Assembly (NCBI RefSeq): GCF_025420485.1
Contig: NZ_JAOEFD010000005.1
Coordinates: forward strand, 1-64,000
Direction of reading: 5' to 3'
Length of the DNA: 64,000 nt
Source: Nesterenkonia marinintestina
Lineage (GTDB): Bacteria; Actinomycetota; Actinomycetes; Actinomycetales; Micrococcaceae
The translations under genes and the position numbers were made by a program. Each line of letters opens with the position of its first letter. Positions within the stretch are counted from its first letter, which is position 1. Of the stretch, positions 24,562 through 53,133 are shown in pieces. Under the pieces are notes generated by a model. That model was not told where the DNA came from, ran no database searches, and saw nothing but the letters and a program-made list of their open reading frames with translations.

Positions 24562-24583
24562 TTACCGACCGAACGGTCTGTAA
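24562..24583. promoter_or_regulatory. PaaR-type operator, site A (paaI-paaK-paaR)
   Basis: A 22-bp inverted repeat of the form TTACCGACCG-AA-CGGTCTGTAA, with 18 of 22 positions symmetric. It lies 26 nt before the paaI start codon and shares its core with sites at 27112, 36751, 44507 and 53112. Confidence 0.7.
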
Positions 24584-24608
24584 TTCCTCGCACCACTCCG
24601 GAGAACCC

Positions 24609-25067
24609 ATGCCGCAGCCCCTCGAAGCTCCCACCCACGCGATGCTCGCCTCGGACCACGCCTCCCAGTGGCTCGGCATCGAGGTCCTCCAGGCCGACCT
24701 CGGGCACGCCCGGATCACCATGACCGTCCGGCGGGAGATGACCAACGGCTTCGCCATCACCCACGGGGGGATGGTCTTCTCCCTGGCGGACACCGCATTC
24801 GCCATGTCGTGCAACGCCCCCGACGGCGACGCGGACACCGTGACGGTGGCCTCCGGAGTGGACATCAACTTCCTGCGGCCCGCGGCCGTCGGCGACGTGC
24901 TGATCGCCGAGGCACGCGCCGTGGCGGCGACCGGACGCAGCGGAGTCTGCGACGTCGTGGTCACCCGGGACAGCGACGACGAGCCCATCGCCCTGTTCCG
25001 GGGCCGCTACCGCACCATCCCCGCCCCCTCCTCGCCCGCCGGGGCCGAGACCTCCCGAGAGAAGTGA
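24609..25067 (+). CDS. paaI: Hydroxyphenylacetyl-CoA thioesterase PaaI
   Basis: This 152-residue hotdog-fold thioesterase removes CoA from stalled ring-hydroxylated phenylacetyl-CoA intermediates and so rescues the CoA pool. The PaaI signature TNGFAITHGGMVFSLADTAF is at residues 41-60, with HGG and the catalytic Asp in LADTAFA. It is the first gene after operator site A and is followed by paaK after 4 nt. Length and motif order are standard for the family. Confidence 0.93.
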   Translation: MPQPLEAPTHAMLASDHASQWLGIEVLQADLGHARITMTVRREMTNGFAITHGGMVFSLADTAFAMSCNAPDGDADTVTVASGVDINFLRPAAVGDVLIAEARAVAATGRSGVCDVVVTRDSDDEPIALFRGRYRTIPAPSSPAGAETSREK

Positions 25068-25071
25068 CGCC

Positions 25072-26397
25072 ATGAGCATCGAGACGCCCTCCGAACTCGC
25101 GCCGACCGACCCCTCACAGCCCGACCCCGAGGAGCTGATGAGCCGGGCTGAGATCGAAGCGCTCCAGCTCACCCGCCTGCAGGACGCCGTGCGGCGCGCC
25201 TACGACGGCGTGGAGGCGTACCGGGAGCTCTACGACTCCCACGGCGTCTCCCCCGACGACCTGCAGACCCTCGACGACCTGGCGAAGTTCCCCTTCACGG
25301 ACAAGGAGTTCCTGCGCCGGGCCTACCCGTTCAAGGGCTTCGCCGTGCCGATGGAGCAGATCCGCCGGATCCACGCCTCCTCCGGCACCACCGGCCTGCC
25401 GACCGTCGTGGGCTACACCGACGAGGACCTCGACACCTGGGCCACGCTGGTGGCGCGCTGCCTGCGCTTCGCCGGAGTGCGTCCCGGGGACATGGTCCAC
25501 AACGCCTACGGCTACGGGCTGTTCACCGGAGGCCTGGGGGCCCATGCGGGCATCGAGAAGCTCCGGGCCACCGTCATCCCGATGTCGGGCGGGCAGACGG
25601 AGAAGCAGGTCCAGCTCATCGAGGACTTCCGCCCGCGGGCGATCCTGTGCACCCCGACCTACCTCCTCGCACTGGCCGACGGGTTCCGTGCGGCCGGCGT
25701 CGACCCCCGGGAGACCTCGCTCGAGGTGGCCGTGCTCGGCGCCGAGCCGTGGACCGACGAGATGCGCCGTGAGATCGAGCGGACCTTCGACCTGCGGGCC
25801 TGCGACATCTACGGGCTCTCGGAGGTCATGGGCCCGGGCGTGGCCGGAGAGTCCGGCGAGCGCCAGGACGCCTCGACGATCTGGGAGGACCACTTCCGCC
25901 CGGAGATCATCGACCCCTTCACCGACGAGGTGCTGCCCACCGGTCAGCACGGCGAGCTGGTCTTCACCGCGCTGACCAAACAGGCGCTGCCGATCATCCG
26001 CTACCGGACCCACGACCTCACCCAGCTGCTGCCGGGCACCGACCGGCCCGGCCACCGCCGCATGGGCCGCATCACCGGCCGCAGCGACGACATGATCATC
26101 CTGCGCGGAGTGAACCTCTTCCCCTCGCAGATCGAGGAGATCGCACTCGGCATCGACCACCTGTCCCCGCACTTCCAGCTGCGGCTGACGCGCCCGGACC
26201 GGATGGACCAGATGACGGTGCACATCGAGCGCCGCTCCGACTGCACCGCCGAGGACGGCGAGGGCGCCGGACGCACCCTGGCGGAGCGGATCAAGATCCG
26301 GATCGGCAGCTCCTGCCGCGTCGTGGTCGAGGAGCCCGGAGCGCTGGCACGCTCGTCGGGCAAGCTGAGGAGGATCTATGACGAACGGCCCAAGTGA
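25072..26397 (+). CDS. paaK: Phenylacetate-CoA ligase
   Basis: This 441-residue AMP-forming ligase makes phenylacetyl-CoA, the inducer and first intermediate of the pathway. The P-loop-like HASSGTTGLPTVVGYT (about residues 101-116), the motif IYGLSEVMGPGVA and the C-terminal GRSDDMIILRGVNLFPSQIEE (split across about residues 337-357) are those of PaaK. It starts 4 nt after paaI. Its end lies 56 nt before the repressor start, so paaI, paaK and the TetR gene form one operon. Confidence 0.95.
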   Translation: MSIETPSELAPTDPSQPDPEELMSRAEIEALQLTRLQDAVRRAYDGVEAYRELYDSHGVSPDDLQTLDDLAKFPFTDKEFLRRAYPFKGFAVPMEQIRRIHASSGTTGLPTVVGYTDEDLDTWATLVARCLRFAGVRPGDMVHNAYGYGLFTGGLGAHAGIEKLRATVIPMSGGQTEKQVQLIEDFRPRAILCTPTYLLALADGFRAAGVDPRETSLEVAVLGAEPWTDEMRREIERTFDLRACDIYGLSEVMGPGVAGESGERQDASTIWEDHFRPEIIDPFTDEVLPTGQHGELVFTALTKQALPIIRYRTHDLTQLLPGTDRPGHRRMGRITGRSDDMIILRGVNLFPSQIEEIALGIDHLSPHFQLRLTRPDRMDQMTVHIERRSDCTAEDGEGAGRTLAERIKIRIGSSCRVVVEEPGALARSSGKLRRIYDERPK

Positions 26398-26453
26398 GGT
26401 GCGACGATGACGCGTTCCCCCTCGGCCCCGTCGGGCCGCGGCGGGGGGATGCC

Positions 26454-27059
26454 ATGACGGACGCCGCCACACAGCCCGCGGTCCGTCGGGGCCGTCCGGG
26501 ATACGACCGCGACGAGCTGATCACCGTCTGCGTCGAGACCTTCAACCGCCACGGGTACGAGGGTACGTCCATGGGCGCACTGGCCCGTGAGCTGGGGATC
26601 TCGAAGTCGGCGATCTACCACCACGTCTCCTCCAAGGAGGAGATCCTCGACATCGCCCTGACCCACTCCCTGTCCGAGCTGGAGAGCGTGGTCGAGGAGG
26701 CCGGCTCGGCAGGGCTGCGGCCGGTCGAGGAGTTCGAACGCATCCTGGGCTCCTCGATCGAGGTGCTCACCCGTTCGCTGCCCTACGTGACGCTGCTGCT
26801 GCGCCTGCGGGGCAACTCGGACCTCGAGGTCCGGGCCCTGCAGCGTCGGCGGGACATCACCCTGCGCCTGGCCGAGCTGGTCCGCCGGGCGCAGAGCGAC
26901 GGCGATCTGCGCGCCGACATCGATGCGCGCACGGTCTCGCGCCTGACCATGGGCATGGTGAACTCCATAGTGGACTGGTACCGGCCGGAGCGGGTCGCCT
27001 CGGTGGATGCGCTGCGCGACCACATGGTCTCCCTGATGCTGGACGGCCTGCGCCGCTGA
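26454..27059 (+). CDS. paaR: TetR family regulator, probable PaaR repressor
   Basis: This 201-residue protein has an N-terminal TetR helix-turn-helix: [19 protein letters not shown], then [17 protein letters not shown] (about residues 24-60). A helical ligand domain follows. Its place inside the cluster and the TetR-type palindromes at paa promoters make it the likely phenylacetyl-CoA-responsive repressor (inference; PaaR-type TetR proteins are known from other bacteria). I chose ATG 26454, preceded by GGGGGG, over GTG 26394, which would overlap the paaK stop and add 20 non-TetR residues. Confidence 0.85.
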
Positions 27060-27081
27060 ACCGTCGGCGTCGCGGCGGCGA

Positions 27082-27097
27082 TGTGTTGACTGTCACA
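27082..27097. promoter_or_regulatory. CRP-like site upstream of paaA
   Basis: TGTGT-TGACTG-TCACA matches TGTGA-N6-TCACA with one change and overlaps the -35 hexamer of the paaA promoter. Confidence 0.5.
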
Positions 27098-27115
27098 GGC
27101 CTGTGGGGATATACT
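27086..27115 (+). promoter_or_regulatory. paaABCDE promoter
   Basis: -35 TTGACT (27086-27091) and -10 TATACT (27110-27115) are separated by 18 bp, close to the vegetative consensus. The PaaR-type operator overlaps the -10 and the expected start point. Confidence 0.75.
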
Positions 27116-27131
27116 GAACGAACGGTCAGTA
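27112..27131. promoter_or_regulatory. PaaR-type operator, site B (paaABCDE)
   Basis: TACTGAACGAACGGTCAGTA is a 20-bp inverted repeat with 16 symmetric positions. It overlaps the -10 hexamer, an ideal place for repression, and lies 27 nt upstream of the paaA start. Confidence 0.7.
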
Positions 27132-27157
27132 ATTCTTCGACGGATCGAGGACGCAGC

Positions 27158-28144
27158 ATGTCAGCCGATGTCACCTCCCTGCAGGACGCACGCGAGGACG
27201 CCCAGGCCGGCGAGGCCCGCTTCGAGCAGCTCATCGCCGACGACTCCCGCGTGGAGCCGCGGGACTGGATGCCGGAGAAGTACCGGAAGACCCTGGTCCG
27301 GCAGGTCTCCCAGCACGCGCACTCCGAGATCATCGGCATGCAGCCGGAGGGGAACTGGATCACCCGCGCTCCCAGCCTCAAGCGCAAGGCCATCCTCATG
27401 GCGAAGGTCCAGGACGAGGCCGGCCACGGCCTCTACCTGTACTCGGCCGCCGAGACGCTGGGCACCCCGCGCGACGAGATGTACGACCAGCTCTACACCG
27501 GCCGCGCCAAGTACTCCTCGATCTTCAACTACCCGGCCCGCACGTGGGCCGACATCGGCGCCATCGGCTGGCTGGTCGACGGTGCCGCGATCTGCAACCA
27601 GGTCCCGCTCTGCCGCGCCTCCTACGGCCCCTACGGCCGGGCCATGGTCCGGATCTGCAAGGAGGAGTCGTTCCACCAGCGCCAGGGCTGGGAGATCCTC
27701 CACACCCTGGCCCACGGCACGGAGGCCCAGAAGCAGATGGCCCAGGACGCCGTGGACCGGTTCTACGGCCCCGCGCTACAGATGTTCGGCCCGCCCGACG
27801 CCGACTCCCCGAACTCCCAGCAGTCGATGGCCTGGAACATCAAGCGGTTCTCCAACGACGAGCTGCGCCAGCGGTTCGTCGACATGATCGTCCCCCAGGC
27901 CGAGGCGCTGGGACTGACCCTGCCCGACCCCGACCTGAAGTGGAACGAGGAGCGGGGCCACTACGACTTCGGCGAGCTCGACTGGGACGAGTTCTTCACC
28001 GTGCTCAAGGGCGGAGGCCCGTGCAGCCGCCAGCGCATGGACCACTACCGCCGGGCCCGCGACGAGGGCGCCTGGGTGCGCGAGGCCGCGGCCGCATACG
28101 CCCGCCGCGAGGCCGCCCCGCAGGCCGGTCTCGTCGGCGCCTGA
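27158..28144 (+). CDS. paaA: Phenylacetyl-CoA epoxidase subunit A (catalytic)
   Basis: This 328-residue ferritin-like diiron subunit carries out the oxygen-dependent epoxidation of phenylacetyl-CoA. Iron-ligand motifs are visible as Glu-x-x-His pairs: [11 protein letters not shown] (E87, H90) and [12 protein letters not shown] (E170, H173). The segment [10 protein letters not shown] and the C-terminal [14 protein letters not shown] are conserved in PaaA. ATG 27158 has a GAGG ribosome site; the frame from 27083 includes the promoter and operator and is rejected. It heads paaABCDE, with paaB 45 nt downstream. Confidence 0.96.
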
Positions 28145-28189
28145 GCCGCACCCACACGATCCACGTCACGTCAGAGAGGCACCACACCC

Positions 28190-28492
28190 ATGACCTCCGA
28201 GCACTCCTCCTCCAACACCTGGCCGCTGTGGGAGGTCTTCATCCGGTCCTCGCGGGGACTCTCCCACGTCCACGCCGGCTCGCTCCACGCCCCGGACGCC
28301 ACCATGGCCGTGCGCAACGCCCGGGACCTCTACACCCGCCGGAACGAGGGGACCTCCGTGTGGGTCGTCCCGGCCGATGCGGTCACCGCCTCCGACCCGG
28401 ACTCCAAGGGCGGCTTCTTCGAGTCGGCGCAGGGCAAGAGCTACCGCCACGCCACCTACTACACGAAGTCCGAAGGGGTGAAGCACCTGTGA
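28190..28492 (+). CDS. paaB: Phenylacetyl-CoA epoxidase subunit B
   Basis: This 100-residue subunit bridges PaaA-PaaC heterodimers in the epoxidase complex. The typical opening WPLWEVFIRSSRGLSHVHAG and the segment RNEGTSVWVVPAD identify it. Its stop codon overlaps the paaC start by 4 nt (GTGA), so translation is coupled. A GAGAGG-like site precedes ATG 28190. Confidence 0.95.
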   Translation: MTSEHSSSNTWPLWEVFIRSSRGLSHVHAGSLHAPDATMAVRNARDLYTRRNEGTSVWVVPADAVTASDPDSKGGFFESAQGKSYRHATYYTKSEGVKHL

Positions 28493-29316
28493 GCTTCGCC
28501 TCCCACGACTCCGCGACCAAGCAGTCGCAGGGCGACGCGATCACCGCGGAGGAGATCGCCGACTCCGGTGCGACGGCCTCCGAGGACGTCGCCCGGTATG
28601 CGCTCATCCTCGGCGACGACTCCCTGATGCTCGCCCAGCGCCTCGGCGGCTGGATCTCCCGGGCTCCGGAGCTCGAGGAGGACATCGCCCTGGCGAACAT
28701 CGCCCTCGACCTGCTGGGCCACGCCCGGTTCCTGCTCACCTACGCCGGCAGCGCCTGGGGGAAGTCCGAGGACGACCTCGCCTACTTCCGCGATGAGGAG
28801 GACTTCCGGTCCTGCCGGCTCGTGGAGCAGGAGAACGGCGACTTCGGCACGACCATCGCCCGGCAGCTGATCTTCAGCTTCTACGCCCACGAGCTCTACA
28901 CCCGGCTGCTGGACTCCGAGGACCGGACCCTGTCGGCCATCGCCGACAAGGCGCTCAAGGAGGTCGCCTACCACCAGGACCACGCCGCCCAGTGGGTGCT
29001 GCGCCTGGGCCTGGGCACCGAGGAGTCCTCCCGCCGGATGCAGTCCGGACTCGACTCGCTGTGGCCCCTGGTCGAGGAGCTCTTCGTCGACGTCGAGCCG
29101 ATCGAACGTCTCGAGGGCGTCGCCGTGCCGCCGTCGTCGCTGCGTGAGCCGACCATGCGCCGGGTCGCCGAGATCATCGAGGAGGCCGGACTCACCGTGC
29201 CCGATGCGGCTCCGGCCTACGGCGGAGACCGCCGAGGGCTCCACTCCGAGCAGCGCGGCTTCATCCTCGCCGAGATGCAGGTCCTCGCCCGCCGGCACCC
29301 CGACGCCACCTGGTGA
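28489..29316 (+). CDS. paaC: Phenylacetyl-CoA epoxidase subunit C (structural)
   Basis: This 275-residue ferritin-like subunit pairs with PaaA but is catalytically inactive in known complexes. It matches PaaC in YALILGDDSLMLAQRLGGW, IALANIALDLLGHARFLL and EVAYHQDHAAQWVLRLG. The start is GTG 28489, which overlaps the paaB stop; the much longer open frame upstream is a shadow of paaA and paaB. paaD begins 59 nt downstream. Confidence 0.95.
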   Translation: MSFASHDSATKQSQGDAITAEEIADSGATASEDVARYALILGDDSLMLAQRLGGWISRAPELEEDIALANIALDLLGHARFLLTYAGSAWGKSEDDLAYFRDEEDFRSCRLVEQENGDFGTTIARQLIFSFYAHELYTRLLDSEDRTLSAIADKALKEVAYHQDHAAQWVLRLGLGTEESSRRMQSGLDSLWPLVEELFVDVEPIERLEGVAVPPSSLREPTMRRVAEIIEEAGLTVPDAAPAYGGDRRGLHSEQRGFILAEMQVLARRHPDATW

Positions 29317-29375
29317 CGGTCCCCGGGCCCGCCCCGGATCACCACACGCACCCCACACCGAGAGGAGCCCGCCCG

Positions 29376-29873
29376 ATGGCCACCACCGCCGCGCCGCAGA
29401 CCAGCGTCTGGGACATCGCCGCCACGGTGCCGGACCCGGAGATCCCGGTGCTCTCCATCGCCGACCTGGGGATCCTCCGACGCACCGACGTCGAGGAGGA
29501 CGGCACCGCCGTCGTCGTCATCACGCCCACCTACTCGGGCTGCCCGGCGATGGACACCATCACCGCCGACGTCCGAACCGCTCTGGAGCAGGCCGGCTTC
29601 GAGAAGGTGCGTGTCGACCTGGTCCTCCATCCGGCCTGGACCACCGACTGGATGACCGAGGAGGGGAAGCGGAAGCTGCGTGAGTACGGCATCGCGCCGC
29701 CCACCGGCCGAGCCGCGGCGGGCGGACCGGTCCGTGTGGGCCTGAGCGTGAAGTGCCCGCGCTGCGACTCCCCCGACACCCGCGAGATGGCCCACTTCGG
29801 CTCCACCGCCTGCAAGGCCCTCTACCGCTGCAACAGCTGCCTGGAACCCTTCGACCATTTCAAGGTGCACTGA
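29376..29873 (+). CDS. paaD: Phenylacetyl-CoA epoxidase assembly protein PaaD
   Basis: This 165-residue protein belongs to the MIP18/DUF59 family and is thought to help iron-sulfur or metal maturation of the epoxidase system. The DUF59 motif TVPDPEIPVLSIADLGIL is at about residues 16-33 and the conserved cysteine in YSGCPAMD follows. A C-terminal zinc-ribbon-like CPRC...CNSC is typical of PaaD. ATG 29376 has GGAG 8 nt upstream and is preferred over the frame start at 29313, which overlaps paaC. The stop overlaps the paaE start (ATGA). Confidence 0.93.
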   Translation: MATTAAPQTSVWDIAATVPDPEIPVLSIADLGILRRTDVEEDGTAVVVITPTYSGCPAMDTITADVRTALEQAGFEKVRVDLVLHPAWTTDWMTEEGKRKLREYGIAPPTGRAAAGGPVRVGLSVKCPRCDSPDTREMAHFGSTACKALYRCNSCLEPFDHFKVH

Positions 29874-31051
29874 TGACCACTGACACCGCCGACGCGCAGA
29901 GCGGGGCCCCCGCACGACGCCGAGCCACCTTCAATACGCTCACCGTCTCCGAGGTCCGCCGGCTGACCCCGGACTCGGTGGAGGTCACCTTCGCGATCCC
30001 CGAGGAGCTGCAGGACGACTTCGACTACGCGCCGGGACAGTACGTGGCCCTGCGGGCGGAGATCGAGGGGCAGGAGATCCGCCGCTCCTACTCGATCTGC
30101 ACCGTCCCGGTGCCCGGAGAGATCCGGGTCGCCATCAAGCGCGACTTCGGCGGGCTCTTCTCCTCGTGGGCCAACGACGAGCTCCGGGCCGGAGACACCC
30201 TCGAGGTCATGAACCCGGCCGGGACCTTCGTCTCCAAGACCGCGCTGCGCACCCTCAACCGTCCTGAGGAGGTGGCCGCCGAGGCCGCCGCCGAGCCGGG
30301 CCACGTGCACATGGTGGCGTTCGCCGCCGGATCCGGGATCACTCCGATCATGTCGATCGCGAAGTCGGTCCTGGCCACCGCGGAGGACACCTCCTTCGAC
30401 CTGGTCTACGGCAACCGTTCGGCGGGCGACGTGATGTTCGCGGAAGAGATCGGTGATCTGAAGGACCGCTACCCCTCCAGGTTCGCCGTCCACCACGTCC
30501 TCTCCCGCGAACAGCGCATCAACCCGATGCTGACCGGTCGCATCGACCACGAGAAGCTCGACGACCTGCTCGACAAGGTGCTGCGGGTGGACGGGACAGA
30601 CGAATGGTTCCTCTGCGGCCCGTTCGAGCTCGTGCAGCTGGTCCGCGACGGACTGTCCTCCCGCGGAGTGCCGGAGGAGAAGGTGCGCTTCGAGCTGTTC
30701 ACCACCGGTCGGCCGGACCGCCCGACGGGCCAGCAGGGTCGCGAGGTGAAGGCCGACCCGAAGGGCGACAACTTCGAGATCGAGTTCACCCTCGACGGGC
30801 TCACCGGACAGGTGGAGTCCCCGAAGTCCGCCCAGGAGACGGTGCTCAACGCCGCGCTGCGCACCCGACCCGACGTGCCCTTCGCCTGCGCCGGCGGCGT
30901 CTGCGGCACCTGCCGGGCCAAGGTCGTCTCCGGGGACTTCGAGATGGAGGAGAACTTCGCCCTCGAGCCCGACGAGGTCGAGGCCGGCTACGTGCTGACC
31001 TGCCAGACCCGTCCCACCTCGAAGAAGCTGGCCGTCGACTTCGACTCCTGA
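29873..31051 (+). CDS. paaE: Phenylacetyl-CoA epoxidase reductase subunit PaaE
   Basis: This 392-residue reductase passes electrons from NADPH through FAD and a 2Fe-2S centre to the epoxidase. The FAD-binding RRSYSICTVP, the NAD(P)-binding FAAGSGITPIMSI and the plant-type ferredoxin cluster CAGGVCGTCRAKV with a further Cys in LTCQTRP are all present, in the order FAD, NAD(P), 2Fe-2S. The start overlaps the paaD stop by 4 nt in a different frame; the upstream extension in the open frame is a shadow of paaD. Confidence 0.96.
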   Translation: MTTDTADAQSGAPARRRATFNTLTVSEVRRLTPDSVEVTFAIPEELQDDFDYAPGQYVALRAEIEGQEIRRSYSICTVPVPGEIRVAIKRDFGGLFSSWANDELRAGDTLEVMNPAGTFVSKTALRTLNRPEEVAAEAAAEPGHVHMVAFAAGSGITPIMSIAKSVLATAEDTSFDLVYGNRSAGDVMFAEEIGDLKDRYPSRFAVHHVLSREQRINPMLTGRIDHEKLDDLLDKVLRVDGTDEWFLCGPFELVQLVRDGLSSRGVPEEKVRFELFTTGRPDRPTGQQGREVKADPKGDNFEIEFTLDGLTGQVESPKSAQETVLNAALRTRPDVPFACAGGVCGTCRAKVVSGDFEMEENFALEPDEVEAGYVLTCQTRPTSKKLAVDFDS

Positions 31052-31097: not shown

Positions 31098-31868
31098 GTG
31101 ATCGACTGGACCATGGACGGCGGACTCGCCGAGGTCGTGCTGGACGCGCCGAAGAAGCTGAACTCCCTGGACGAGGCCGCACTGTCCGAGCTCGACGACG
31201 CCTACCGTGAGGCCGAGGCCGCCGGCGCCCGTGCGCTGCTGCTGCGCGGCGAGGGGAAGGGCTTCTGCGCCGGGCGCGACATCTCCGCGGTCGACCCGTC
31301 GACCGACGACGCCCTGGGCTATCTGCAGGAGAAGGTCACCCCAGTGCTCCGGCGGATGGCGGCCTTCCCGGCACCGACGTTCGCCGCCGTACACGGGCCA
31401 TGCCTGGGCGTCGGACTGGGGCTGGCGATCGCCACCGACGTGGTCTACGTCGCCGAGGACGCGAAGATCGGTTCGCCCTTCGCCAACCTCGGGGCGACGC
31501 TGGACTCCGGCGGCCACGCACTGTTCGTCGAGCGGCTCGGCGCCCACCGCACCCTGGACCTCATCTACACCGCAGATCTGATGACCGGCGAGGAGGCCGT
31601 CCGGTCCGGCCTGTTCTCCCGCGCACTGCCGGGCGAGGAGCTGGTCGAGTTCACCCGCGGCAAGGCGGTCCGGGCCGCAGCGGGCGCGACCCTGGCCTTC
31701 CGTGAGTCCAAGGAGCTGGTCCGGCGTCTGCGCGACGACCGCATCGGCCTGTGGGAGTCTCTGGACGAGGAGAACCGCGCCCAGGGCCGACTCTGCTCCT
31801 CGCAGGACTATGCCGAGGGGTTCGCCGCGTTCCAGGACAAGCGCCGCCCGGAGTTCCGGGGCGTCTGA
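31098..31868 (+). CDS. paaG: Enoyl-CoA hydratase/isomerase, probable PaaG
   Basis: This 256-residue crotonase-fold protein probably isomerises ring-1,2-epoxyphenylacetyl-CoA to the oxepin. The oxyanion segment FCAGRDIS and the second block GPCLGVGLGLAIA are clear. The active-site region reads FANLGATLDSGGHALF, where the Asp-Ser-Gly-Gly arrangement is closer to PaaG isomerases than to hydratases with two glutamates. GTG 31098 has a GAGAGGAGAG site upstream. It ends the paaABCDE-G unit. Confidence 0.85.
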   Translation: MIDWTMDGGLAEVVLDAPKKLNSLDEAALSELDDAYREAEAAGARALLLRGEGKGFCAGRDISAVDPSTDDALGYLQEKVTPVLRRMAAFPAPTFAAVHGPCLGVGLGLAIATDVVYVAEDAKIGSPFANLGATLDSGGHALFVERLGAHRTLDLIYTADLMTGEEAVRSGLFSRALPGEELVEFTRGKAVRAAAGATLAFRESKELVRRLRDDRIGLWESLDEENRAQGRLCSSQDYAEGFAAFQDKRRPEFRGV

Positions 31869-36728: not shown

Positions 36729-36750
36729 GATGTCCTCTCGGCACGGGATT

Positions 36751-36768
36751 ACCGACCGATCGGTCGGT
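36751..36768. promoter_or_regulatory. PaaR-type operator, site C (paaZ)
   Basis: ACCGACCGATCGGTCGGT is a perfect 18-bp palindrome, the most symmetric of the five copies. It lies between the paaZ promoter region and the ribosome-binding site. Confidence 0.75.
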
Positions 36769-36784
36769 TTAGTCTCCATCCTAG

Positions 36785-36800
36785 CGTGTGCCACCTCACA
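36785..36800. promoter_or_regulatory. CRP-like site upstream of paaZ
   Basis: CGTGT-GCCACC-TCACA has one perfect half-site and one with two changes from TGTGA. It lies 16 bp upstream of operator site C with respect to paaZ. Confidence 0.35.
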
Positions 36801-43259: not shown

Positions 43260-44468
43260 TCAGACCGTCTCCACCAGCATGGCGGAGCCTTGTCCGACGC
43301 CGACGCACATGGTCGCCAGGCCGCGGCCGACGCCCTCGTCCTCCATGCGGCGCACCAGGGTCAGCAGGATGCGTGAGCCGGAGGAGCCCAGCGGGTGTCC
43401 CAGTGCGATGGCGCCGCCGTCGGCGTTGACCGTGGCCTGGTCCAGGCCGAGCCGGCGGATGCAGGCCAGGGACTGGGTCGCGAAGGCCTCGTTGAGCTCG
43501 ACGGCCCCGAGGTCCCCGACCCCCCAGCCGGCGCGCTCGAGGACCTTCTCCGTGGCGGGGACCGGCCCGATTCCCATGATCTCCGGGGCCACACCGGCGT
43601 TGGCCGAACCGACCACCCGCGCCCGCGGAGCCAGTCCGTACTTCTCGATCGCACGCTCCGAGGCGACGATCACCGCGGAGGCGCCGTCGTTCAGCGAGGA
43701 GGCGTTGCCGGCGGTGACGACCTCTCCCCCGGCGACCACGGGCCGCAGCTTGGCCAGCACCTCGGCGGTGGTGTCCGGACGGGGTCCCTCGTCGGTGTCG
43801 ACGACGGTCACCGCACCCTTGCGCCCCTTCACCTCCACCGGGGTGATCTCACGGGTCAGACGCCCGGCCTCGACCGCGGCCACGGCGCGGCGCTGGGATT
43901 CGGCGGCGAAGGCGTCGGCGTCCTCCCGGGTGATGGAGTCCAGCCGCGCGACCTCCTCGGCGGTCTCGGGCATGGAGTAGGTGCGCTTGTCGATGCACAG
44001 GAACTCCGGGTTCACGAACCGCCATCCGATGGAGGTGTCGAAGACCTCCCCCGGCTTGGCGAAGGGCGTGGTCGGCTTGGCCATGACCCAGGGCGCCCGG
44101 GACATCGACTCGACGCCTCCGGCGACGACGATGTCGGCCGCGCCTGCTGCGATCATGTGGGAGGCCTGGGCGACTGCGGAGAGCCCGGAGGCGCAGAGCC
44201 GGTTGACGGTGATCCCAGGCACCGAGTCGGGGAACCCGGCCAGCAGCCAGGCCATGCGGGCGACGTTGCGGTTCTCCTCGCCGGCGCCGTTGGCGTTGCC
44301 GAGGATGACCTCGTCGACGTCGGCGGGGTCGATCCCCGAGTCCTCCACCACGCGGCGGACCACCAGCGCGGCGAGGTCGTCGGGGCGGACGGAGGACAGT
44401 GCGCCTCCGTAGCGTCCCACGGGGGTCCGGGTGCCGGAGACGAGGAATGCGGGCGATGGGGCGGGCAC
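43260..44468 (-). CDS. paaJ: 3-oxoadipyl-CoA thiolase, probable PaaJ
   Basis: This 402-residue thiolase cleaves 3-oxoadipyl-CoA to succinyl-CoA and acetyl-CoA, and in PaaJ also the earlier 3-oxo-5,6-dehydrosuberyl-CoA. The nucleophile is C92 in NRLCASGLSAVAQA, with GHPLGSSGSR and the C-terminal CVGVGQG. The phrase EVILGNANGAGEENRNVARM is typical of beta-ketoadipyl-CoA thiolases. The start is GTG 44468, 7 nt after GGAGGA; the longer frame to 44558 would cross operator site D and is rejected. It is first in paaJ-paaF-paaH. Confidence 0.92.
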   Translation of the reverse strand: MPAPSPAFLVSGTRTPVGRYGGALSSVRPDDLAALVVRRVVEDSGIDPADVDEVILGNANGAGEENRNVARMAWLLAGFPDSVPGITVNRLCASGLSAVAQASHMIAAGAADIVVAGGVESMSRAPWVMAKPTTPFAKPGEVFDTSIGWRFVNPEFLCIDKRTYSMPETAEEVARLDSITREDADAFAAESQRRAVAAVEAGRLTREITPVEVKGRKGAVTVVDTDEGPRPDTTAEVLAKLRPVVAGGEVVTAGNASSLNDGASAVIVASERAIEKYGLAPRARVVGSANAGVAPEIMGIGPVPATEKVLERAGWGVGDLGAVELNEAFATQSLACIRRLGLDQATVNADGGAIALGHPLGSSGSRILLTLVRRMEDEGVGRGLATMCVGVGQGSAMLVETV

Positions 44469-44506: not shown

Positions 44507-44526
44507 TACTGACCGATCGTTCATAT
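44507..44526. promoter_or_regulatory. PaaR-type operator, site D (paaJFH)
   Basis: TACTGACCGATCGTTCATAT contains the symmetric core TGACCGATCGTTCA, with one mismatch per half. It is the most degenerate of the five copies. It lies 38 nt upstream of paaJ and downstream of a minus-strand TTGACC -35 at 44553-44558. Confidence 0.6.
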
Positions 44527-44547: not shown

Positions 44548-44563
44548 TGTGAGGTCAATCACG
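44548..44563. promoter_or_regulatory. CRP-like site upstream of paaJ
   Basis: TGTGA-GGTCAA-TCACG has one perfect half-site and one with a single change. The minus-strand centre includes TTGACC, the probable -35 hexamer. Confidence 0.55.
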
Positions 44564-48122: not shown

Positions 48123-48159
48123 CGCCGCCTCCTGGGGCCGTAGGAGCCTGTCCCTCCAG

Positions 48160-48175
48160 TGTGACGCCAATCACT
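48160..48175. promoter_or_regulatory. CRP-like site upstream of the GcvT-like gene
   Basis: TGTGA-CGCCAA-TCACT has one perfect half and one with a single change. It lies 38 nt upstream of ATG 48122. Confidence 0.5.
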
Positions 48176-48278: not shown

Positions 48279-48300
48279 ATGGGCGTCCGGAGGGCTCAGG

Positions 48301-49092
48301 TCACTGCAGCATGGTCTTGTCGTCCAGGGCGGCGCCCTTGAGCTGGGAGAACCGGTGGAGCAGGTCCTCCGGCGTCATGTTCCGCTTCTCCGCCTCGGTG
48401 GCGTCGAGGATGATCCGACCCTCGTGCATCATGATCAGCCGGTTGCCGACCTCAAGCGCCTGGTTCATGTTGTGGGTGACCATCAGCGTGGTCAGCCCCT
48501 GACCTTCGACGACCTGCTTGGTCAGCCGGGTCACCAGCGCCGCGCGCTGGGGGTCCAGGGCCGCGGTGTGCTCGTCGAGGAGCAGGACCTTGGGCCGGGA
48601 GAAGGTCGCCATCAGCAGGCTCAGCGCCTGCCGCTGACCGCCGGAGAGCAGCCCGACCTTCGTCTTCAGCCGGTTCTCCAGGCCCAGCTCCAGGGCCTTG
48701 AGCTCCTCGGCGAACCGATCCCGCTTGGACCGGGTCACCGCCCGCGCCAGCCCGCGGAAGGCACCGCGGCGATCGGCCAGCGCCAGGTTCTCCTCGATGG
48801 TGAGGTTGGGCGCCGTGCCGGCCATGGGGTCCTGGAAGACCCGGCCGATGCGGGCCGCCCGCTGGTGCTCCTTCTGCTTGGAGATCTCGCGACCGGCGAG
48901 CAGCACCTGACCGTGGTCCTGGGGGATGCGGCCGGCGATCGTGTTCAGGATGGTCGACTTGCCGGCGCCGTTGGAGCCGATGACCGTGACGAAGTCGCCC
49001 TCGTGCATGTCCAGGGACACGTCCACCAGGGCCTTGCGCTCGTTGACGGTGCCGGGGAAGAAGGTCTTCGAGACCTGATCGATGGTCAGCAT
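48301..49092 (-). CDS. ABC transporter ATP-binding protein
   Basis: This 263-residue ATPase drives import with the permease and lipoprotein encoded upstream. Walker A is GSNGAGKSTI, the signature LSGGQRQALSL, Walker B VLLLDEHTAALD and the switch His MVTHNMNQAL; all are intact. It starts 2 nt after the permease stop codon. With the ABC_sub_bind lipoprotein it resembles systems annotated for tryptophan/tyrosine or related amino acid uptake, but the substrate is unproven. Confidence 0.93.
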   Translation of the reverse strand: MLTIDQVSKTFFPGTVNERKALVDVSLDMHEGDFVTVIGSNGAGKSTILNTIAGRIPQDHGQVLLAGREISKQKEHQRAARIGRVFQDPMAGTAPNLTIEENLALADRRGAFRGLARAVTRSKRDRFAEELKALELGLENRLKTKVGLLSGGQRQALSLLMATFSRPKVLLLDEHTAALDPQRAALVTRLTKQVVEGQGLTTLMVTHNMNQALEVGNRLIMMHEGRIILDATEAEKRNMTPEDLLHRFSQLKGAALDDKTMLQ

Positions 49093-49094
49093 GC

Positions 49095-50159
49095 TCAGGA
49101 CTCCTTCTGTCCGGTCTGTCCGGTCTGTCCGGTCTCTCCGGCCCCTCCAGGTTCGGCGGACCCTCCGCTTCCCTCGGCCGCGGGGGCGCCCGCGGGCTCC
49201 TCGACGACCTCCTCGGCGGGGGTGCTCTCGGCCTCGGCCGCGGCGTCGGCGCCCTCAGCGGTGAGCATCGCGGAGCCGCCGCCCGCGCCGAGCCCGCGCC
49301 GCCACTTCGCCAGCCGGCGGAAGCCGGACCACTGGGGAAGAAGCAGCGCGGCGATCACCAGCAGCGCGGAGAGCAGCTTCATGTCGTTGGGGTTCAGGCC
49401 GGCGTTGAGGGCGAACTGGATGGCCAGTCGGTAGAGCACCGCACCCAGCAGCACGGCGAAGGTCGCCTGGATGACGAGTCGGGAGCCGAAGATCGCCTGC
49501 CCGACGATCACCGAGGCCAGTCCGACCAGGATCAGACCGATGCCCATCTGGATGTCGACGAAGCCCTGGTACTGGGCCACCAGCGCGCCGGCGACGGCGA
49601 CGAGCCCGTTGGAGATCATCAGACCGTAGATCTTCTGCCGATCGGTGGAGACGGCGAAGGAGCGGATCATCAGTTCGTTGTCACCGGTGGCCTGCAGCGC
49701 CATCCCGGTGTCGGTGTGCAGGTACCAGTCGATGACGAGCTTGAAGAGCAGCGCGACGACGATCAGCACGGCGATGGATGCGATGCCGCGGTCGACGAAG
49801 CCGTACATCATGGTGAACAGGGTGTCCTCGCCCAGCAGGGGGACGTTGGAGGCGCCCATGATGCGCAGGTTGATCGAGTAGAGCCCGATCATGGTCAGGA
49901 TGCCGGCCAGCAGTCCGTTGATGTTCCCCTTGGTGTGCAGCAGGCCGGTGATGAGGCCGGCGATCGCACCGGCGAGGAAGGCCGCCGCGGTGGCCAGGAA
50001 CGGGTTCACCCCCTGGACGATCAGCACGCCGGCCGTGCCGGCGCCGGTGGTGAACGAGCCGTCGACCGTCAGGTCGGGGAAATTGAGCACTCGGAACGTC
50101 AGATAGACGCCCAACGCCACGATCGCGTAGATCAGGCCGAGCTCGACTGCTGTGATCAT
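49095..50159 (-). CDS. ABC transporter permease
   Basis: This 354-residue permease has about eight membrane helices and belongs to the branched-chain/ABC_sub_bind-associated permease type (LIYAIVALGVYLTFRVLNFP, then VDGSFTTGAGTAG). The segment TDTGMALQATGDNELMIRSF is the cytoplasmic coupling loop. The last 60 or so residues are an unusual Glu/Ala/Gly-rich tail that ends in three exact TGQ units, encoded by 9-bp tandem repeats at 49108-49134. The tail is probably disordered and cytoplasmic. Confidence 0.9.
   Translation of the reverse strand: MITAVELGLIYAIVALGVYLTFRVLNFPDLTVDGSFTTGAGTAGVLIVQGVNPFLATAAAFLAGAIAGLITGLLHTKGNINGLLAGILTMIGLYSINLRIMGASNVPLLGEDTLFTMMYGFVDRGIASIAVLIVVALLFKLVIDWYLHTDTGMALQATGDNELMIRSFAVSTDRQKIYGLMISNGLVAVAGALVAQYQGFVDIQMGIGLILVGLASVIVGQAIFGSRLVIQATFAVLLGAVLYRLAIQFALNAGLNPNDMKLLSALLVIAALLLPQWSGFRRLAKWRRGLGAGGGSAMLTAEGADAAAEAESTPAEEVVEEPAGAPAAEGSGGSAEPGGAGETGQTGQTGQKES
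49108..49143 (-). repeat. 9-bp tandem repeat inside the permease gene
   Basis: TGTCCGGTC is repeated three times exactly (49108-49134) and followed by the variant TCTCCGGCC. In the minus-strand frame it encodes the repeated TGQ tail. It may vary in copy number by slippage without breaking the frame. Confidence 0.7.
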
Positions 50160-50254
50160 CTGTCCTCATCGGGGGTGTGGAGAGGTGTATTGCGTGGGCC
50201 GCGGGGTGTGCGGCGGGGTGCGGGGTCCGGTCGACGGTTCGCCGGCCCCGCGGT

Positions 50255-50286
50255 GATCCCCCGCCGCCTCGCGGCGACGGGGGATC
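50255..50286 (-). terminator. Hairpin between lipoprotein and permease genes
   Basis: GATCCCCC-GCCGC pairs with GCGGC-GACGGGGGATC around a 3-nt loop with a small bulge. Such intra-operon hairpins often protect or partly terminate the upstream message, giving more binding protein than permease. The 145-nt spacer otherwise shows only G-rich sequence. Confidence 0.5.
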
Positions 50287-50304
50287 CGGTGCGGGTGACG
50301 GGGA

Positions 50305-51429
50305 TCAGGAGTCGTCGTCCTCGGCCTCTTCGTCCTCGGCGCCCTCGTCCTCGGCGTCCTCGTCCTCAGAGTCCTCGTCGTCCTCCTCCTCTTCCTCCTC
50401 GCCGGCCTCAGCCGGGTCCTGAGCCTCGACGTCCTCGCCGACGACGACGTCGGCGCGGTCGAGCAGGTCGTCAGAGATCTCGATGCCCTGGGCCTCGGCG
50501 GCCTCCGGGTTGATGTAGAGCTCCAGCTCGGACTGCTCCTCGACGGCCATCGACGCCGGGTCCTCGTCGTCCTGCAGCACCCGCAGCGCCATCTCACCGG
50601 CCTGCTGGCCCAGCTTCTCGTAGTTGATGCCGTAGGTGGCCACCGCGCCGCGGGTCACCGAGTCGCCCTCGGCGGCGATGATCGGCAGCTCGTTGTCCTC
50701 GCCGTACTGGATCACGGTCTCCAGGGCGGAGACCACCACGTTGTCGGTCGGCACGTAGACCGCGTCGACGTCGAGGGACTGCAGACCCTGCTGGACCTCG
50801 GCGGAGGTGGTGACCGTGGACTCCTCGATCTCGAGGCCGAGCTCGTCGGCGGCCTCCTTGGCCATGTCGACCTGCACCTGCGAGTTCGCCTCGCCGGAGG
50901 AGTAGACGATGCCCACGGTCTCGGCGTCGGGGTCGATCTCCTGGAGCAGCTCGAGCTGCTCCTGGACCGGGTTCATGTCCGAGGTGCCGGTGATGTTGCC
51001 GCCCGGCTCGTCCCAGGAGTCGACCAGGCCGGCCTCCTCCGGGTCGGTCACCGCGGTGAACACGATGGGGGTGTCGTCGATGGCCTGGGCCGCGGCCTGG
51101 GCGGTCGGAGTCGCGATGGCCAGGACCAGGTCCAGGTCGGCGTTGGCGAAGGTGCCGGCGATGTTGGTCGCGGTGGCCTGCTCGCCCTGGGCGTTCTGCT
51201 CGTCCCATTCGACCTCGACGTCGGCCTCCTCGAAGGCGGACTTGAAGCCGTCCCGCGCGGCGTCGAGCGAGGGGTGGGAGACGATCTGGGTGACGCCGAT
51301 GCTGTAGCTCTCGCCGTCGCCGCCGTCGTCGTCGCCTCCGCCGCCGTCTCCGTTGCCGCATGCGGTGAGCATGAGTGCCGCGGCCCCGGTGAGTGCGGTG
51401 ACCTTCATGATGTGGTGTCGCTGACGCAT
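50305..51429 (-). CDS. ABC transporter substrate-binding lipoprotein (ABC_sub_bind family)
   Basis: This 374-residue lipoprotein has a signal peptide ending in the lipobox LTAC with C24, followed by a Gly/Asp-rich spacer. The binding domain matches the ABC_sub_bind (TrpX-like) family: GVTQIVSHPSLDAARDGF, VFTAVTDPEEAGLV, SDMNPVQEQLELL and VPTDNVVVSALETVI. The last 40 or so residues are almost entirely Glu, Asp and Ala, an unusual acidic tail for this family. ATG 51429 follows AAGGAGG. It is first in the three-gene import operon. Confidence 0.9.
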   Translation of the reverse strand: MRQRHHIMKVTALTGAAALMLTACGNGDGGGGDDDGGDGESYSIGVTQIVSHPSLDAARDGFKSAFEEADVEVEWDEQNAQGEQATATNIAGTFANADLDLVLAIATPTAQAAAQAIDDTPIVFTAVTDPEEAGLVDSWDEPGGNITGTSDMNPVQEQLELLQEIDPDAETVGIVYSSGEANSQVQVDMAKEAADELGLEIEESTVTTSAEVQQGLQSLDVDAVYVPTDNVVVSALETVIQYGEDNELPIIAAEGDSVTRGAVATYGINYEKLGQQAGEMALRVLQDDEDPASMAVEEQSELELYINPEAAEAQGIEISDDLLDRADVVVGEDVEAQDPAEAGEEEEEEDDEDSEDEDAEDEGAEDEEAEDDDS

Positions 51430-51487
51430 TGTTCCTCCTTGATCGGTGCGGGCGAGCCGGGTGCCGCGCCTTGTGGGCTCGGCGCTC

Positions 51488-51515
51488 CGGGTGCCGTCAC
51501 GGTAGACGGCACCCG
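51488..51515 (-). terminator. Hairpin between the MFS gene and the ABC operon
   Basis: CGGGTGCCGTC and GACGGCACCCG form an 11-bp perfect stem around the loop ACGGTA. It lies 48 nt after the MFS stop codon and upstream of the lipoprotein gene, consistent with a terminator of the MFS transcript. Confidence 0.55.
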
Positions 51516-51522
51516 GCAGCTG

Positions 51523-51538
51523 TGTGATGTCTCTCATA
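51523..51538. promoter_or_regulatory. CRP-like site upstream of the ABC operon
   Basis: TGTGA-TGTCTC-TCATA matches the CRP consensus with one change. It lies 94 nt upstream of the lipoprotein start codon. Confidence 0.4.
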
Positions 51539-51562
51539 GTGCCTGACTGATCCGATCGGGGA

Positions 51563-52921
51563 TCAGCGACCCACCGGTGAGAGGCCGGAGCGCTCGGAGT
51601 CGTCCATCAGGTTGATCCCCTGCAGACCCTTCGGGACCAGGGAGACCGCCGTCAGCGACATGATGCCGAGCCCCGCGATGTAGACCCCGATCAGCCACGA
51701 CTGCCCCGTCCCGTCGAGGATCGCCTGGGAGATCATCGGGGCGAAGGCACCACCGATGATGGATCCCAGCGCGTAGCCGATGGAGACTCCGGAGAAGCGG
51801 ATGGAGACGGGGAACATCTCCGCGTAGAGCGCCGACTGCGGACCGTAGGACGGGCCGAGGCCGATGGTGAGGATGAAGATGGCCAGGGCGAACAGCGGCA
51901 GCGAGGCGGTGTCGAGCAGGAACCACATCGGGATCGCCCAGATGATGATGATGATGTAGCCGATCTGGAACGTCCGTACTCGTCCCCACCGGTCGGAGAT
52001 CCATCCGCCGAAGAGCGTGAAGGCGAACCATCCGACGCCGCCGATGACGGAGGCGATGAGGGTGGCCCCGCGGTCCATGCCCAGGGTGTTGACCCCGTAG
52101 GCGGCGAAGAACGCGATGACGAGGTAGCCGGCGGCGTTGTTGGCCGCGAAGATCACCGCGGCGAGGAAGGTGTACTTCTTGTGGGTGGTCACCAGCTCCG
52201 ACAGCGGGGCCGAGGACTCCTTCTTGCGCTCCTTCATCTCCTCGAAGACCGGGGACTCGTCGACCTTCAGTCGGATGAGGATGCCGACGATGATCAGCAC
52301 GAAGGAGAACAGGAACGGCACGCGCCAGCCCCAGGCGAGGAACTGCTCCTCGGTGGTCACGGCGTTGAGGCCGAACATGAAGCCGGTGGCCATCAGCATG
52401 CCCAGCGGGACGCCGACCTGCGGGTAGGCGCCGAAGAGTCCGCGCTTGTGGCGCGGAGCGTGCTCCACCGACAGCAGGGCGGCGCCGCCCCACTCACCGC
52501 CGGCGGACAGGCCCTGCAGGATGCGCAGCACGATCAGCAGGATCGGTGCGGCCGCACCCCAGGCGGCGTAGGTGGGCAGCATACCGATGAGCACGGTGGC
52601 CACACCCATACCGGTCAGGGTGATGAAGAGGACCAGCTTGCGACCGAACCTGTCCCCCAGCCAACCGGAGACGATCGCGCCCAGCGGGCGGAACAGGAAG
52701 GAGATGCCGACCGAGGACCAGGCCACGATCTGTGCCAGGGCCGGGTTCTCGGCGCCGAGCGGTTCGAAGTAGAGGACCGCCAGGACGAAGCCGGCGGCCT
52801 GGGCGTAGATGAAGAAGTCGTACCACTCGATGGTGGTGCCGACGAGGGTCCCTGCGAGGACCTTCTTCTCCTCGCGGGTCATCTCGTGACCCTCGCTGCT
52901 GACATAGGCCTTCTGACTCAA
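51563..52921 (-). CDS. MHS-family MFS transporter
   Basis: This 452-residue proton symporter has 12 predicted helices and the metabolite:H+ symporter look: TIEWYDFFIYAQAAGFV near helix 1, the loop 2-3 motif GWLGDRFGRKLVLF and LRILQGLSAGGEWGGAAL. Family members carry citrate, shikimate, proline/betaine and aromatic acids. The PaaR-type operator in its upstream spacer suggests phenylacetate or a related acid (inference). The start is TTG 52921, supported by GGGAGGGGAG just upstream; the next ATG would delete 13 residues. Confidence 0.88.
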   Translation of the reverse strand: MSQKAYVSSEGHEMTREEKKVLAGTLVGTTIEWYDFFIYAQAAGFVLAVLYFEPLGAENPALAQIVAWSSVGISFLFRPLGAIVSGWLGDRFGRKLVLFITLTGMGVATVLIGMLPTYAAWGAAAPILLIVLRILQGLSAGGEWGGAALLSVEHAPRHKRGLFGAYPQVGVPLGMLMATGFMFGLNAVTTEEQFLAWGWRVPFLFSFVLIIVGILIRLKVDESPVFEEMKERKKESSAPLSELVTTHKKYTFLAAVIFAANNAAGYLVIAFFAAYGVNTLGMDRGATLIASVIGGVGWFAFTLFGGWISDRWGRVRTFQIGYIIIIIWAIPMWFLLDTASLPLFALAIFILTIGLGPSYGPQSALYAEMFPVSIRFSGVSIGYALGSIIGGAFAPMISQAILDGTGQSWLIGVYIAGLGIMSLTAVSLVPKGLQGINLMDDSERSGLSPVGR

Positions 52922-53074
52922 GGGACTCCCCTCCCAGAGATGCGGATTCCATCCGACACTCTTGTGCTCGTGGTGCGGATCGATGATCGCTCAGGAGGCC
53001 TTGGGGCGCCGCTCGCGGGGTGCCGGTCGAGGTCGCGACGTCGTCGTCGCATCCTGATGGGGTCCGCGTTCGGA

Positions 53075-53090
53075 TGTGATGCGAATCACC
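53075..53090. promoter_or_regulatory. CRP-like site between MFS and FAD oxidase genes
   Basis: TGTGA-TGCGAA-TCACC has one perfect half-site and one with a single change. It lies 21 bp from PaaR-type operator site E. Confidence 0.55.
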
Positions 53091-53111
53091 GATGAGTGAA
53101 CTGTAGCACCT

Positions 53112-53133
53112 TTCCCGACCGATTGGTTGGTAA
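53112..53133. promoter_or_regulatory. PaaR-type operator, site E (MFS transporter / FAD oxidase)
   Basis: This 22-bp element reads TTCCCGACCG-AT-TGGTTGGTAA, close to the ideal TTACCGACCG-AT-CGGTCGGTAA. A minus-strand -10-like TACAGT lies at 53100-53105, so the operator would cover the -35 region of the MFS promoter. The divergent FAD oxidase starts 49 nt away. Confidence 0.65.

Follow-up and report, generated by a model that had tools for sequence, protein, structure and literature searches.

Several separate sets of phenylacetate (paa) genes lie in the 64 kb stretch of Nesterenkonia DNA analysed here (hereafter the window), and related palindromes accompany them. This raises the question of whether one regulator reads all of these sites. 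A sequence-only reading had proposed a single TetR-type (PaaR) regulon over five promoters, and this proposal is supported by the specificity of the sites and by their conservation at the same genes. We regard it as highly likely that the TetR gene at 26454-27059 encodes a PaaR-type repressor of the five promoters, with predicted operator binding and phenylacetyl-CoA as the predicted releasing ligand.

The paa genes and their operators

The earlier gene calls were right in kind, and the ring-1,2-epoxidase pathway is present: paaA-E, paaZ and paaI exceed their NCBIfam cut-offs, with paaK just below. On the forward strand lie paaI (thioesterase, 24609..25067, TIGR02286), paaK (phenylacetate-CoA ligase, 25072..26397; best match TIGR02155, 612 bits, cut-off 646), paaA (27158..28144, ATG at 27158, TIGR02156), paaB (28190..28492, TIGR02157), paaC (28609..29316, start approximate, TIGR02158), paaD (29313..29873, TIGR02159), paaE (29930..31051, start approximate, TIGR02160) and a paaG-like enoyl-CoA hydratase/isomerase gene (31098..31868; best match, 142 bits, cut-off 345). 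The reverse strand carries paaZ (34623..36728, ATG at 36728; TIGR02278, 1031 bits, above cut-off) and a paaJ-like (paaJ/pcaF-like) 3-oxoadipyl-CoA thiolase gene (43260..44468; best match, 533 bits, cut-off 605), followed on its 3' side by a paaF-like enoyl-CoA hydratase gene (42446..43255; 143 bits, cut-off 371). As paaJ starts with the GTG at 44468, operator 4 lies upstream of the gene.

All five reported palindromes were found. We aligned them as 20-mers and counted the complementary pairs among the ten arm positions. The predicted PaaR-type operator 1 (24563..24582) lies 26 bp 5' of paaI and operator 2 (27112..27131) 26 bp 5' of paaA, each with 8/10 complementary positions; operator 3 (36750..36769; 9/10) lies 21 bp 5' of paaZ, operator 4 (44507..44526; 6/10) 38 bp 5' of paaJ, and operator 5 (53113..53132; 7/10) in the spacer between an MFS transporter gene and a FAD oxidase gene. 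A 20-bp palindrome of approximately TACYGAMCG-AW-CGKTCRGTA describes them better than the core GACCG-N2-CGGTC given initially. That core is exact in only two sites (24567 and 36754), the other three deviating from it, and exact copies (GACCGNNCGGTC) also occur inside open reading frames at 20980 and 56071; it is too strict, and we discarded it as a description of the operator. We also set aside the divergent short-chain fatty acid transporter gene (44662) as the gene served by site 4, as the site keeps with paaJ where the neighbour differs.

In a leave-one-out matrix test, each held-out site outscored every position of the window except the training sites. With the full matrix, the five sites scored 25.4-31.9 and the best non-site in the window 13.6. 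The 2.58-Mb genome was then scanned with patterns at up to 3 mismatches, using the same pattern read backwards as control. The pattern TACYGACCGAWCGGTCRGTA matched four places, namely sites 1, 2, 3 and 5; TACYGAMCGAWYGKTYRGTA, composed with the five sites in view, matched five places, exactly the five sites; and TACCGACCGNNCGGTCGGTA matched seven, four of the five sites and three others, which carry 3 mismatches each, score 4.8-12.5 with the matrix and lie inside open reading frames. The backward control gave one forward match in each of the three scans. Genome-wide, barring these three weak matches, the operator is thus restricted to paa-related genes, so the scan did not reveal a motif common at unrelated genes, an outcome that would have spoken against the proposed regulon. 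We conclude that all five inverted repeats are genuine and specific.

The same genes carry the operator across genus and family, which answers the comparison with related genomes that had been suggested. In regions from 20 relatives in the genus, it precedes paaI in 20/20 loci, paaZ in 19/19, the MFS transporter gene in 16/16 and paaA in all 18 loci that passed a 55% identity filter; paaJ has it in 12 of 17 loci and lacks it in five. Of 36 loci from other genera in the family, 32 had a site with a score of at least 20 and four fell below 20; the paaI site is degenerate in several other genera (TACCTAATGAACATTCGGTA, score 13.7). In a wider set (threshold 13 of 16), a spacer of 2 was the best fit upstream of paaI in 108/113 and of paaA in 52/56 regions, and in 64/86 regions for paaZ and 20/35 for paaJ, leaving 22 and 15 without such a site.

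Transporter genes at the fifth operator

The MFS gene (51563..52921, reverse strand; TIGR00883 metabolite/H+ symporter, 375 bits, cut-off 443) is a proposed phenylacetate importer. ABC transporter genes (48301..51537, reverse strand) begin 25 bp behind it, encoding a TrpX-type binding protein (50305-51537), a permease (49095-50159) and an ATPase (48301-49092), and probably belong to the same transcription unit. In 13 of 15 genus loci the ABC genes follow the MFS gene within 350 bp and lack a separate strong site. On the other side of the operator, a GlcD-like FAD-linked oxidase (PF01565 and PF02913) is encoded on the forward strand (53146..54585, with an alternative start ATG at 53182).

The sequence-only reading had placed site 5 between the MFS and FAD oxidase genes. 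The MFS link proved constant, whereas the FAD oxidase is a neighbour that varies. A point against the regulon reading is the distance of site 5 from the MFS start, 191 bp in this genome and 76-134 bp in relatives. As for the FAD oxidase, in nine relatives a close homologue lies near the paaI end and the operator stays with the MFS gene. We therefore rejected site 5 as a site of the FAD oxidase alone; in the window it can serve both genes. Aldehyde dehydrogenase genes in two genomes (G138 and G149) were also dismissed as divergent partners, as they lie upstream of the MFS gene in the same direction and the operator does not face them.

Might site 5 belong to another regulator, leaving the MFS, ABC and FAD oxidase genes outside the phenylacetate regulon? 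The site is the second least palindromic of the five, 8.6 kb separate it from its closest fellow site, and the substrates of the transporters and oxidase are only putative. However, all 23 tetR-positive genus genomes with the MFS gene carry the site there, compared with neither of the two tetR-negative genomes that have this gene. At the two of 15 loci that have the ABC genes apart from the MFS gene, the ABC genes carry their own operator, and at a locus from another genus the paa cluster itself includes the MFS gene, preceded by an operator of its own. In Corynebacterium glutamicum, paaT is a transporter gene. As paaT is listed there in the PaaR-controlled set (PMC8864220), a transporter is less unusual in such a set than had been claimed when two of the genes were called additions to it. 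Taken together, we consider separate control of site 5 improbable, and the preferred reading, one regulon over all five sites, indicates the MFS and ABC transporters as likely phenylacetate uptake systems.

The TetR protein as candidate reader

The candidate paaR (26454..27059, forward strand, as reported before) encodes a protein with TetR_N and TetR_C_24 domains and lies between paaK and paaA. In the window, as in most of the relatives examined, it comes after paaK. The paa-operon TetR lies by paa genes and is conserved among the tetR-positive genus relatives, with 66-73% identity in 22 of 23 and 55% in the remaining one, and its recognition region is nearly invariant among 17 orthologues. 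The protein reached no family cut-off in NCBIfam, and a search of viral contigs found no relatives of it. Its best solved relative is SCO3833 (2iai), for which the listing gives no function, and the second best is the TetR-family regulator 3vpr, which we take to be Thermus PfmR.

All 24 tetR-positive genus genomes, this one included, have at least one motif match, together 95 forward matches against 17 for the backward control (summed by eye). The tetR-negative genomes gave 3 against 6 (likewise summed by eye); four of these six are motif-free, one has a weak match, and one retains the operator 5' of a truncated paaI, which is a relic. As tetR and the operators could vanish jointly with the paa genes, co-occurrence alone is no proof that the sites are read by this TetR. 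It is its position, the co-occurrence and the type of operator together that mark it as the candidate PaaR.

FadR/PfmR-type regulators have a similar operator, and another TetR-type acyl-CoA regulator of this sort could read the sites, with the paa TetR as a bystander or as one of two readers. The genome holds at least five more TetR-like genes (24-34% identity), the neighbourhood contains further acyl-CoA genes, and 3vpr as second-best solved relative points the same way. Against this, the acyl-CoA ligase/dehydrogenase genes at 20459-23580 have no position scoring above 7, the paa-operon TetR is conserved beside paa genes, and genomes without it are largely motif-free, as described above. We judge another reader to be improbable. 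Chance palindromes in a GC-rich genome, to which the two exact GACCGNNCGGTC copies inside open reading frames might point, can practically be dismissed in view of the whole-genome scans, the leave-one-out scores and the conservation of the operator 5' of the same genes across the genus.

Proposed mechanism and a probable second input

In the proposed PaaR regulon, a TetR dimer would bind the 20-bp palindrome at the five promoters and, since operator and promoter overlap or lie side by side, block RNA polymerase. The paaI operator fits between the putative promoter elements TTGAGT and TGTAAT, and the paaA operator begins in the putative element TATACT. Phenylacetate entering the cell would be converted by PaaK to phenylacetyl-CoA, which would release PaaR and permit transcription of the predicted operons paaI-paaK-paaR (hence of paaR itself), paaABCDE-G, paaZ and paaJ-F. 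Release at site 5 would permit transcription of the MFS-ABC unit, with phenylacetate as its putative substrate, and of the FAD oxidase gene.

Each of the five operators is accompanied by a CRP/GlxR-like box, scored out of 10 on a TGTGA-N6-TCACA-like model, at 8/10 or better. Boxes of 9/10 lie near operator 1 (TGTGGTTGACATCACA, 24524..24539; 20/20 genus loci), operator 2 (TGTGTTGACTGTCACA, 27082..27097; 16/18) and operator 4 (44548..44563; 11/12 loci having the operator) and on the MFS side of operator 5 (TGTGATGCGAATCACC, 53075..53090; the same side in 16/16 genus MFS loci), and a weaker one near operator 3 (36785..36800; 8/10, with 17/19 loci at 8/10 or more). The genome encodes a CRP/GlxR-type protein (E 1.3e-79 to 3d0s, 1.4e-73 to 4cyd) and a nucleotide-cyclase domain (32.4 bits, cut-off 21.9). 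As a second, cAMP-type input of putative polarity, each PaaR promoter probably also receives a general carbon-source signal through a GlxR-like cAMP-receptor protein.

Possible rewiring in relatives

Five relatives have no lrp beside paaZ; in these, the operator of paaZ faces bkdABC as well, and in four of them paaJF lies 3' of bkdC without an operator of its own. PaaR control in Nesterenkonia may possibly be modular and rewirable, a view we hold tentatively. The core and the MFS importer would be constant; the ABC genes would travel with the MFS gene or under their own operator; and the gene divergent from MFS would be exchanged: here it encodes a GlcD-like FAD oxidase, and in others a thioesterase gene and an oxidase paralogue take its place. 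In the lrp-less clade, bkdABC-paaJF, encoding a 2-oxoacid (BCKDH-like) dehydrogenase, would have been captured through the paaZ operator and the paaJ operator dropped. If so, the bkd complex could convert phenylpyruvate directly into phenylacetyl-CoA, the inducer, and this clade would offer a naturally occurring example of how a regulon can take over an adjacent operon.

Comparison with known PaaR systems

PaaR regulons have already been described in Corynebacterium, Burkholderia and Thermus, so that the principle (PaaR, phenylacetyl-CoA) is not new. Literature searches on paaT, phenylacetate transporters and phenylacetate in Nesterenkonia returned, at the level of listings, nothing on this regulon. 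Like PaaR of C. glutamicum (Chen et al. 2012), the candidate PaaR of Nesterenkonia is a predicted TetR-type repressor in an actinobacterial host; a FAD oxidase and an ABC transporter at the fifth operator set the present regulon apart. The C. glutamicum PaaR operator reportedly shares the arms ACTNACCG...CGGTNAGT with the present one, with 6 bp between them compared with 2 bp here, and that regulon likewise has additional GlxR sites. We take the spacing as a tentative difference, as arms that repeat every 4 bp allow three loci to accommodate either spacing.

In B. cenocepacia, PaaR is a TetR repressor with an inverted repeat, ACCGACCGGTCGGT, between -10 and -35 (PMC2770484), and several separate paa operons and catabolite repression are reported (PMC2770484, PMC9493321). 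Nesterenkonia shares the repressor type, an operator of similar letters and the separate operons; the B. cenocepacia operator is 4 bp shorter at its centre than the paaZ site of the window, and 'crp' is absent from the main text of PMC2770484. PaaR of T. thermophilus (TTHA0973) is described as a TetR repressor of paa genes with phenylacetyl-CoA as effector and the consensus AACnAACGTTnGTT (PMC6651687, PMC9493321). Its targets include a paaI-ligase unit, as here, whereas its consensus and its distant host differ. For PaaR of S. pristinaespiralis, investigated in the context of antibiotic precursor supply, the site AACGA-N4-TCGGT is marked as putative (PMC10933834); it agrees with sites in relatives, for instance TACTGAACGATCGGTCGGTA. 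To these systems the present analysis adds, for phenylacetate catabolism in Nesterenkonia, a predicted operator tested comparatively across the genus.

Five PaaR-type operators and their specificity

All five inverted repeats reported by the sequence-only reading, which had proposed one TetR (PaaR) regulon over five promoters, were found at their positions in the window. As 20-mers, these PaaR-type operators precede paaI (site 1, 24563-24582, TACCGACCGAACGGTCTGTA), paaA (site 2, 27112-27131, TACTGAACGAACGGTCAGTA), paaZ (site 3, 36750-36769, TACCGACCGATCGGTCGGTT) and paaJ (site 4, 44507-44526, TACTGACCGATCGTTCATAT), and lie between the MFS and FAD oxidase genes (site 5, 53113-53132, TCCCGACCGATTGGTTGGTA). 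The exact core ascribed to them, GACCG-N2-CGGTC, is present at sites 1 and 3 and absent from the other three; it has two additional matches in the window, both within open reading frames. With a symmetric weight matrix, the five sites scored 25.4-31.9 vs 13.6 for the best other window position, and in leave-one-out scans every held-out site ranked over all non-site positions.

The search was extended to the whole source genome (2.58 Mb, 37 contigs, 99.7% complete). With at most 3 mismatches allowed, a degenerate pattern gave 4 matches, all belonging to the five sites, and a wider pattern, composed with knowledge of the five sites, matched exactly these. Without the central AW, 4/5 sites were recovered together with three weak extra places (matrix scores 4.8-12.5), all within open reading frames; a backward control pattern gave one forward match in each whole-genome search. 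Since the matches are confined to the sites and three weak places, the objection that the motif might be common at unrelated genes fails.

NCBIfam and Pfam searches identified a same-direction cluster of paaI, paaK, the TetR gene (26454-27059, forward strand), paaA, B, C, D, E and a paaG-like gene. Further window genes are paaZ, a paaJ/pcaF-like thiolase gene with a paaF-like hydratase gene, a GlcD-like FAD oxidase gene, and an MFS metabolite/H+ symporter gene with the genes of a TrpX-type ABC transporter behind it; paaK, the paaG-, paaJ- and paaF-like genes and the MFS gene scored below curated cut-offs. With start codons checked, the operators lie 26 bp upstream of both paaI and paaA, 21 bp upstream of paaZ and 38 bp upstream of paaJ. 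Site 5 is 13 bp upstream of the FAD oxidase's first ATG and 191 bp from the MFS start codon, a TTG.

Repressor and operators among relatives

Matches to the candidate repressor were found at E <=1e-15 in 138 of 149 family genomes, themselves a sample from a larger group, and at E <=1e-20 in 24/30 genus genomes (source genome counted). Its helix-turn-helix is nearly invariant across 17 aligned orthologues. Among the best 80 of 591 named TetR loci, the top three are from Nesterenkonia (71-73% identity), followed by Kocuria and Rothia (55-58%); the window was assigned to Nesterenkonia on this basis. Another locus, L252, is titled Vibrio cholerae strain 35D, a title that may be wrong; its TetR gene is 53% identical to the window's actinobacterial TetR, and a spacer-2 site lies upstream of a paaJ-like gene.

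Pattern matches were present in 24/24 genus genomes with a TetR match. Four of the six genus genomes lacking one had no pattern match, G162 (62% complete) had one weak match, and G164 had two. One of the latter is a paaI-type operator preceding a truncated paaI (L187:9575-9594), which may be what remains of a paa locus since lost.

The comparison of sites in related genomes that the sequence-only reading had suggested showed operators kept at the same genes. When the paa regions of 20/30 genus genomes were scanned with the window's own matrix, a site scoring at least 15 was found upstream of paaI in 20/20 loci, paaA in 18/18, paaZ in 19/19, paaJ in 12/17 and MFS in 16/16; the paaA genes of G155 and G165, excluded by a 55% identity filter, both carried a site in a separate scan. 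In an extended set, all 23 genomes with both the TetR match and this MFS gene had a site at the MFS gene (>=19.4), and neither of the two genomes having this MFS gene and no TetR match did (best score 4.0); 99% of 1932 random 400-bp windows score <=8.9. Because genus genomes share ancestry, these counts are not independent events.

In other family genera, a site scoring at least 20 was found in 32/36 loci and in none of L199, L205, L221 and L226. With named and family loci pooled, the best arm spacing (>=13/16 matches) was 2 bp in 108/113 upstream regions of paaI and 52/56 of paaA, with many misses at paaZ (64/86) and paaJ (20/35). Three loci of other families (L332, L334, L338) carry sites compatible with both 2-bp and 6-bp spacing, because their arms repeat every 4 bp.

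Transporter genes as predicted members

The MFS gene is the invariable partner of site 5, and the gene divergent from it varies. The window has the FAD oxidase there; six genomes (G151, G154, G155, G161, G165, G170) have a gene of ~880 bp, identified in G151 as a 4HBT-type acyl-CoA thioesterase, followed by an oxidase paralogue of 35-41% identity. The paralogue is 2.3 kb distant in G166, and the divergent gene of G012 shares 79% identity with the mmsA-type aldehyde dehydrogenase of the window. Given this constancy, and an MFS gene with its own operator within the paa cluster of another genus (L223), we propose phenylacetate import as the function of the MFS gene.

The ABC genes (48301-51537) start 25 bp behind the MFS gene on the same strand, and in 13/15 genus loci having both they lie <=350 bp behind it. 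In these 13 loci the ABC genes showed no strong upstream site of their own (best 13.1, inside the MFS gene). Where the ABC genes are separate, in G151 (3.7 kb) and G166 (25 kb), they have their own predicted operator, scoring 20.3 (L130:6136-6155) and 27.0, with a second of 22.3 in G166 (L140:17712-17731 and 17854-17873). Since they either adjoin the MFS gene or have an operator when apart, the ABC transporter genes also appear to follow PaaR. The region fetched from G154 held no ABC gene; an extra PaaR-type site (L132:12-31) lies there between paaG and paaZ, upstream of an inserted TRAP transporter that comprises a fused permease and an NMT1-like binding protein. Behind the window's ABC genes, on the same strand, is a GcvT-type gene (46923-48170) that resembles DMSP demethylase, scoring 333 bits against a cut-off of 410.

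The paaZ operator and bkdABC

Five genus genomes (G151, G154, G155, G165, G170; loci L128-L133, L142-L146, L153-L155) have no lrp between paaZ and bkdA. Here, the paaZ operator sits between divergent paaZ and bkdA, facing bkdABC, and in all but G165, where the contig ends, paaJF follows 26-78 bp behind bkdC without its own operator. The fifth site-less paaJ locus is G168:C23; the other thiolase locus of this genome, G168:C48, carries the operator. G012, G161 and G166 have kept lrp; their paaJ lies 74-93 bp behind bkdC and retains its operator, as does that of G158, with a gap of 826 bp. This arrangement fits a possible capture of bkdABC-paaJF by PaaR in the lrp-less genomes, the five of which may reflect a single event.

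A CRP/GlxR-like box beside the operators

A CRP/GlxR-like palindrome with at least 8/10 matches accompanies 5/5 window operators at a start offset of 30-41 bp (24524-24539, 27082-27097, 36785-36800, 44548-44563 and 53075-53090). Such a box occurs in 3.1% of random 184-bp window stretches, coding and intergenic stretches differing. The box may activate or repress; the one at paaA shares positions with a good -35 hexamer. Offsets are similar in relatives, where the box is on the upstream side at paaI (20/20), paaA (16/18), paaZ (17/19) and paaJ (11/12), and where 16/16 MFS loci have it on the operator's MFS side and 5/16 on the opposite side.

The box was also found at lrp (14/14), bkdA (18/19), acdh (8/8), ampL (6/6), atoE (4/4) and abcS (1/15), and at none of paaK, paaB, the paaF-like gene, FADNAD, epim and tetR in the genus relatives scanned. 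This distribution is what would be expected of a global regulator's box. The source genome encodes a nucleotide-cyclase domain and a CRP-type protein close in sequence to solved CRP/FNR-family regulators, which we take to be mycobacterial CRP and corynebacterial GlxR.

Relation to known PaaR regulons

A study of PaaR in C. glutamicum reportedly covers an operator consensus, GlxR sites and multi-species regulons. According to a recent survey, PaaR predominates as the regulator of phenylacetate loci in Actinomycetes, Arthrobacter and Rothia being among the groups it names (PMC13186573). RegPrecise refers to a paper on a PaaR regulog (PMC3840689), and work on Thermus and Burkholderia has established the phenylacetyl-CoA effector and the PaaR operators (PMC9493321, PMC6651687, PMC2770484). 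With PaaR thus known from Actinomycetes, including C. glutamicum, and from Thermus and Burkholderia, the regulon predicted in the window is an instance of an already known type.
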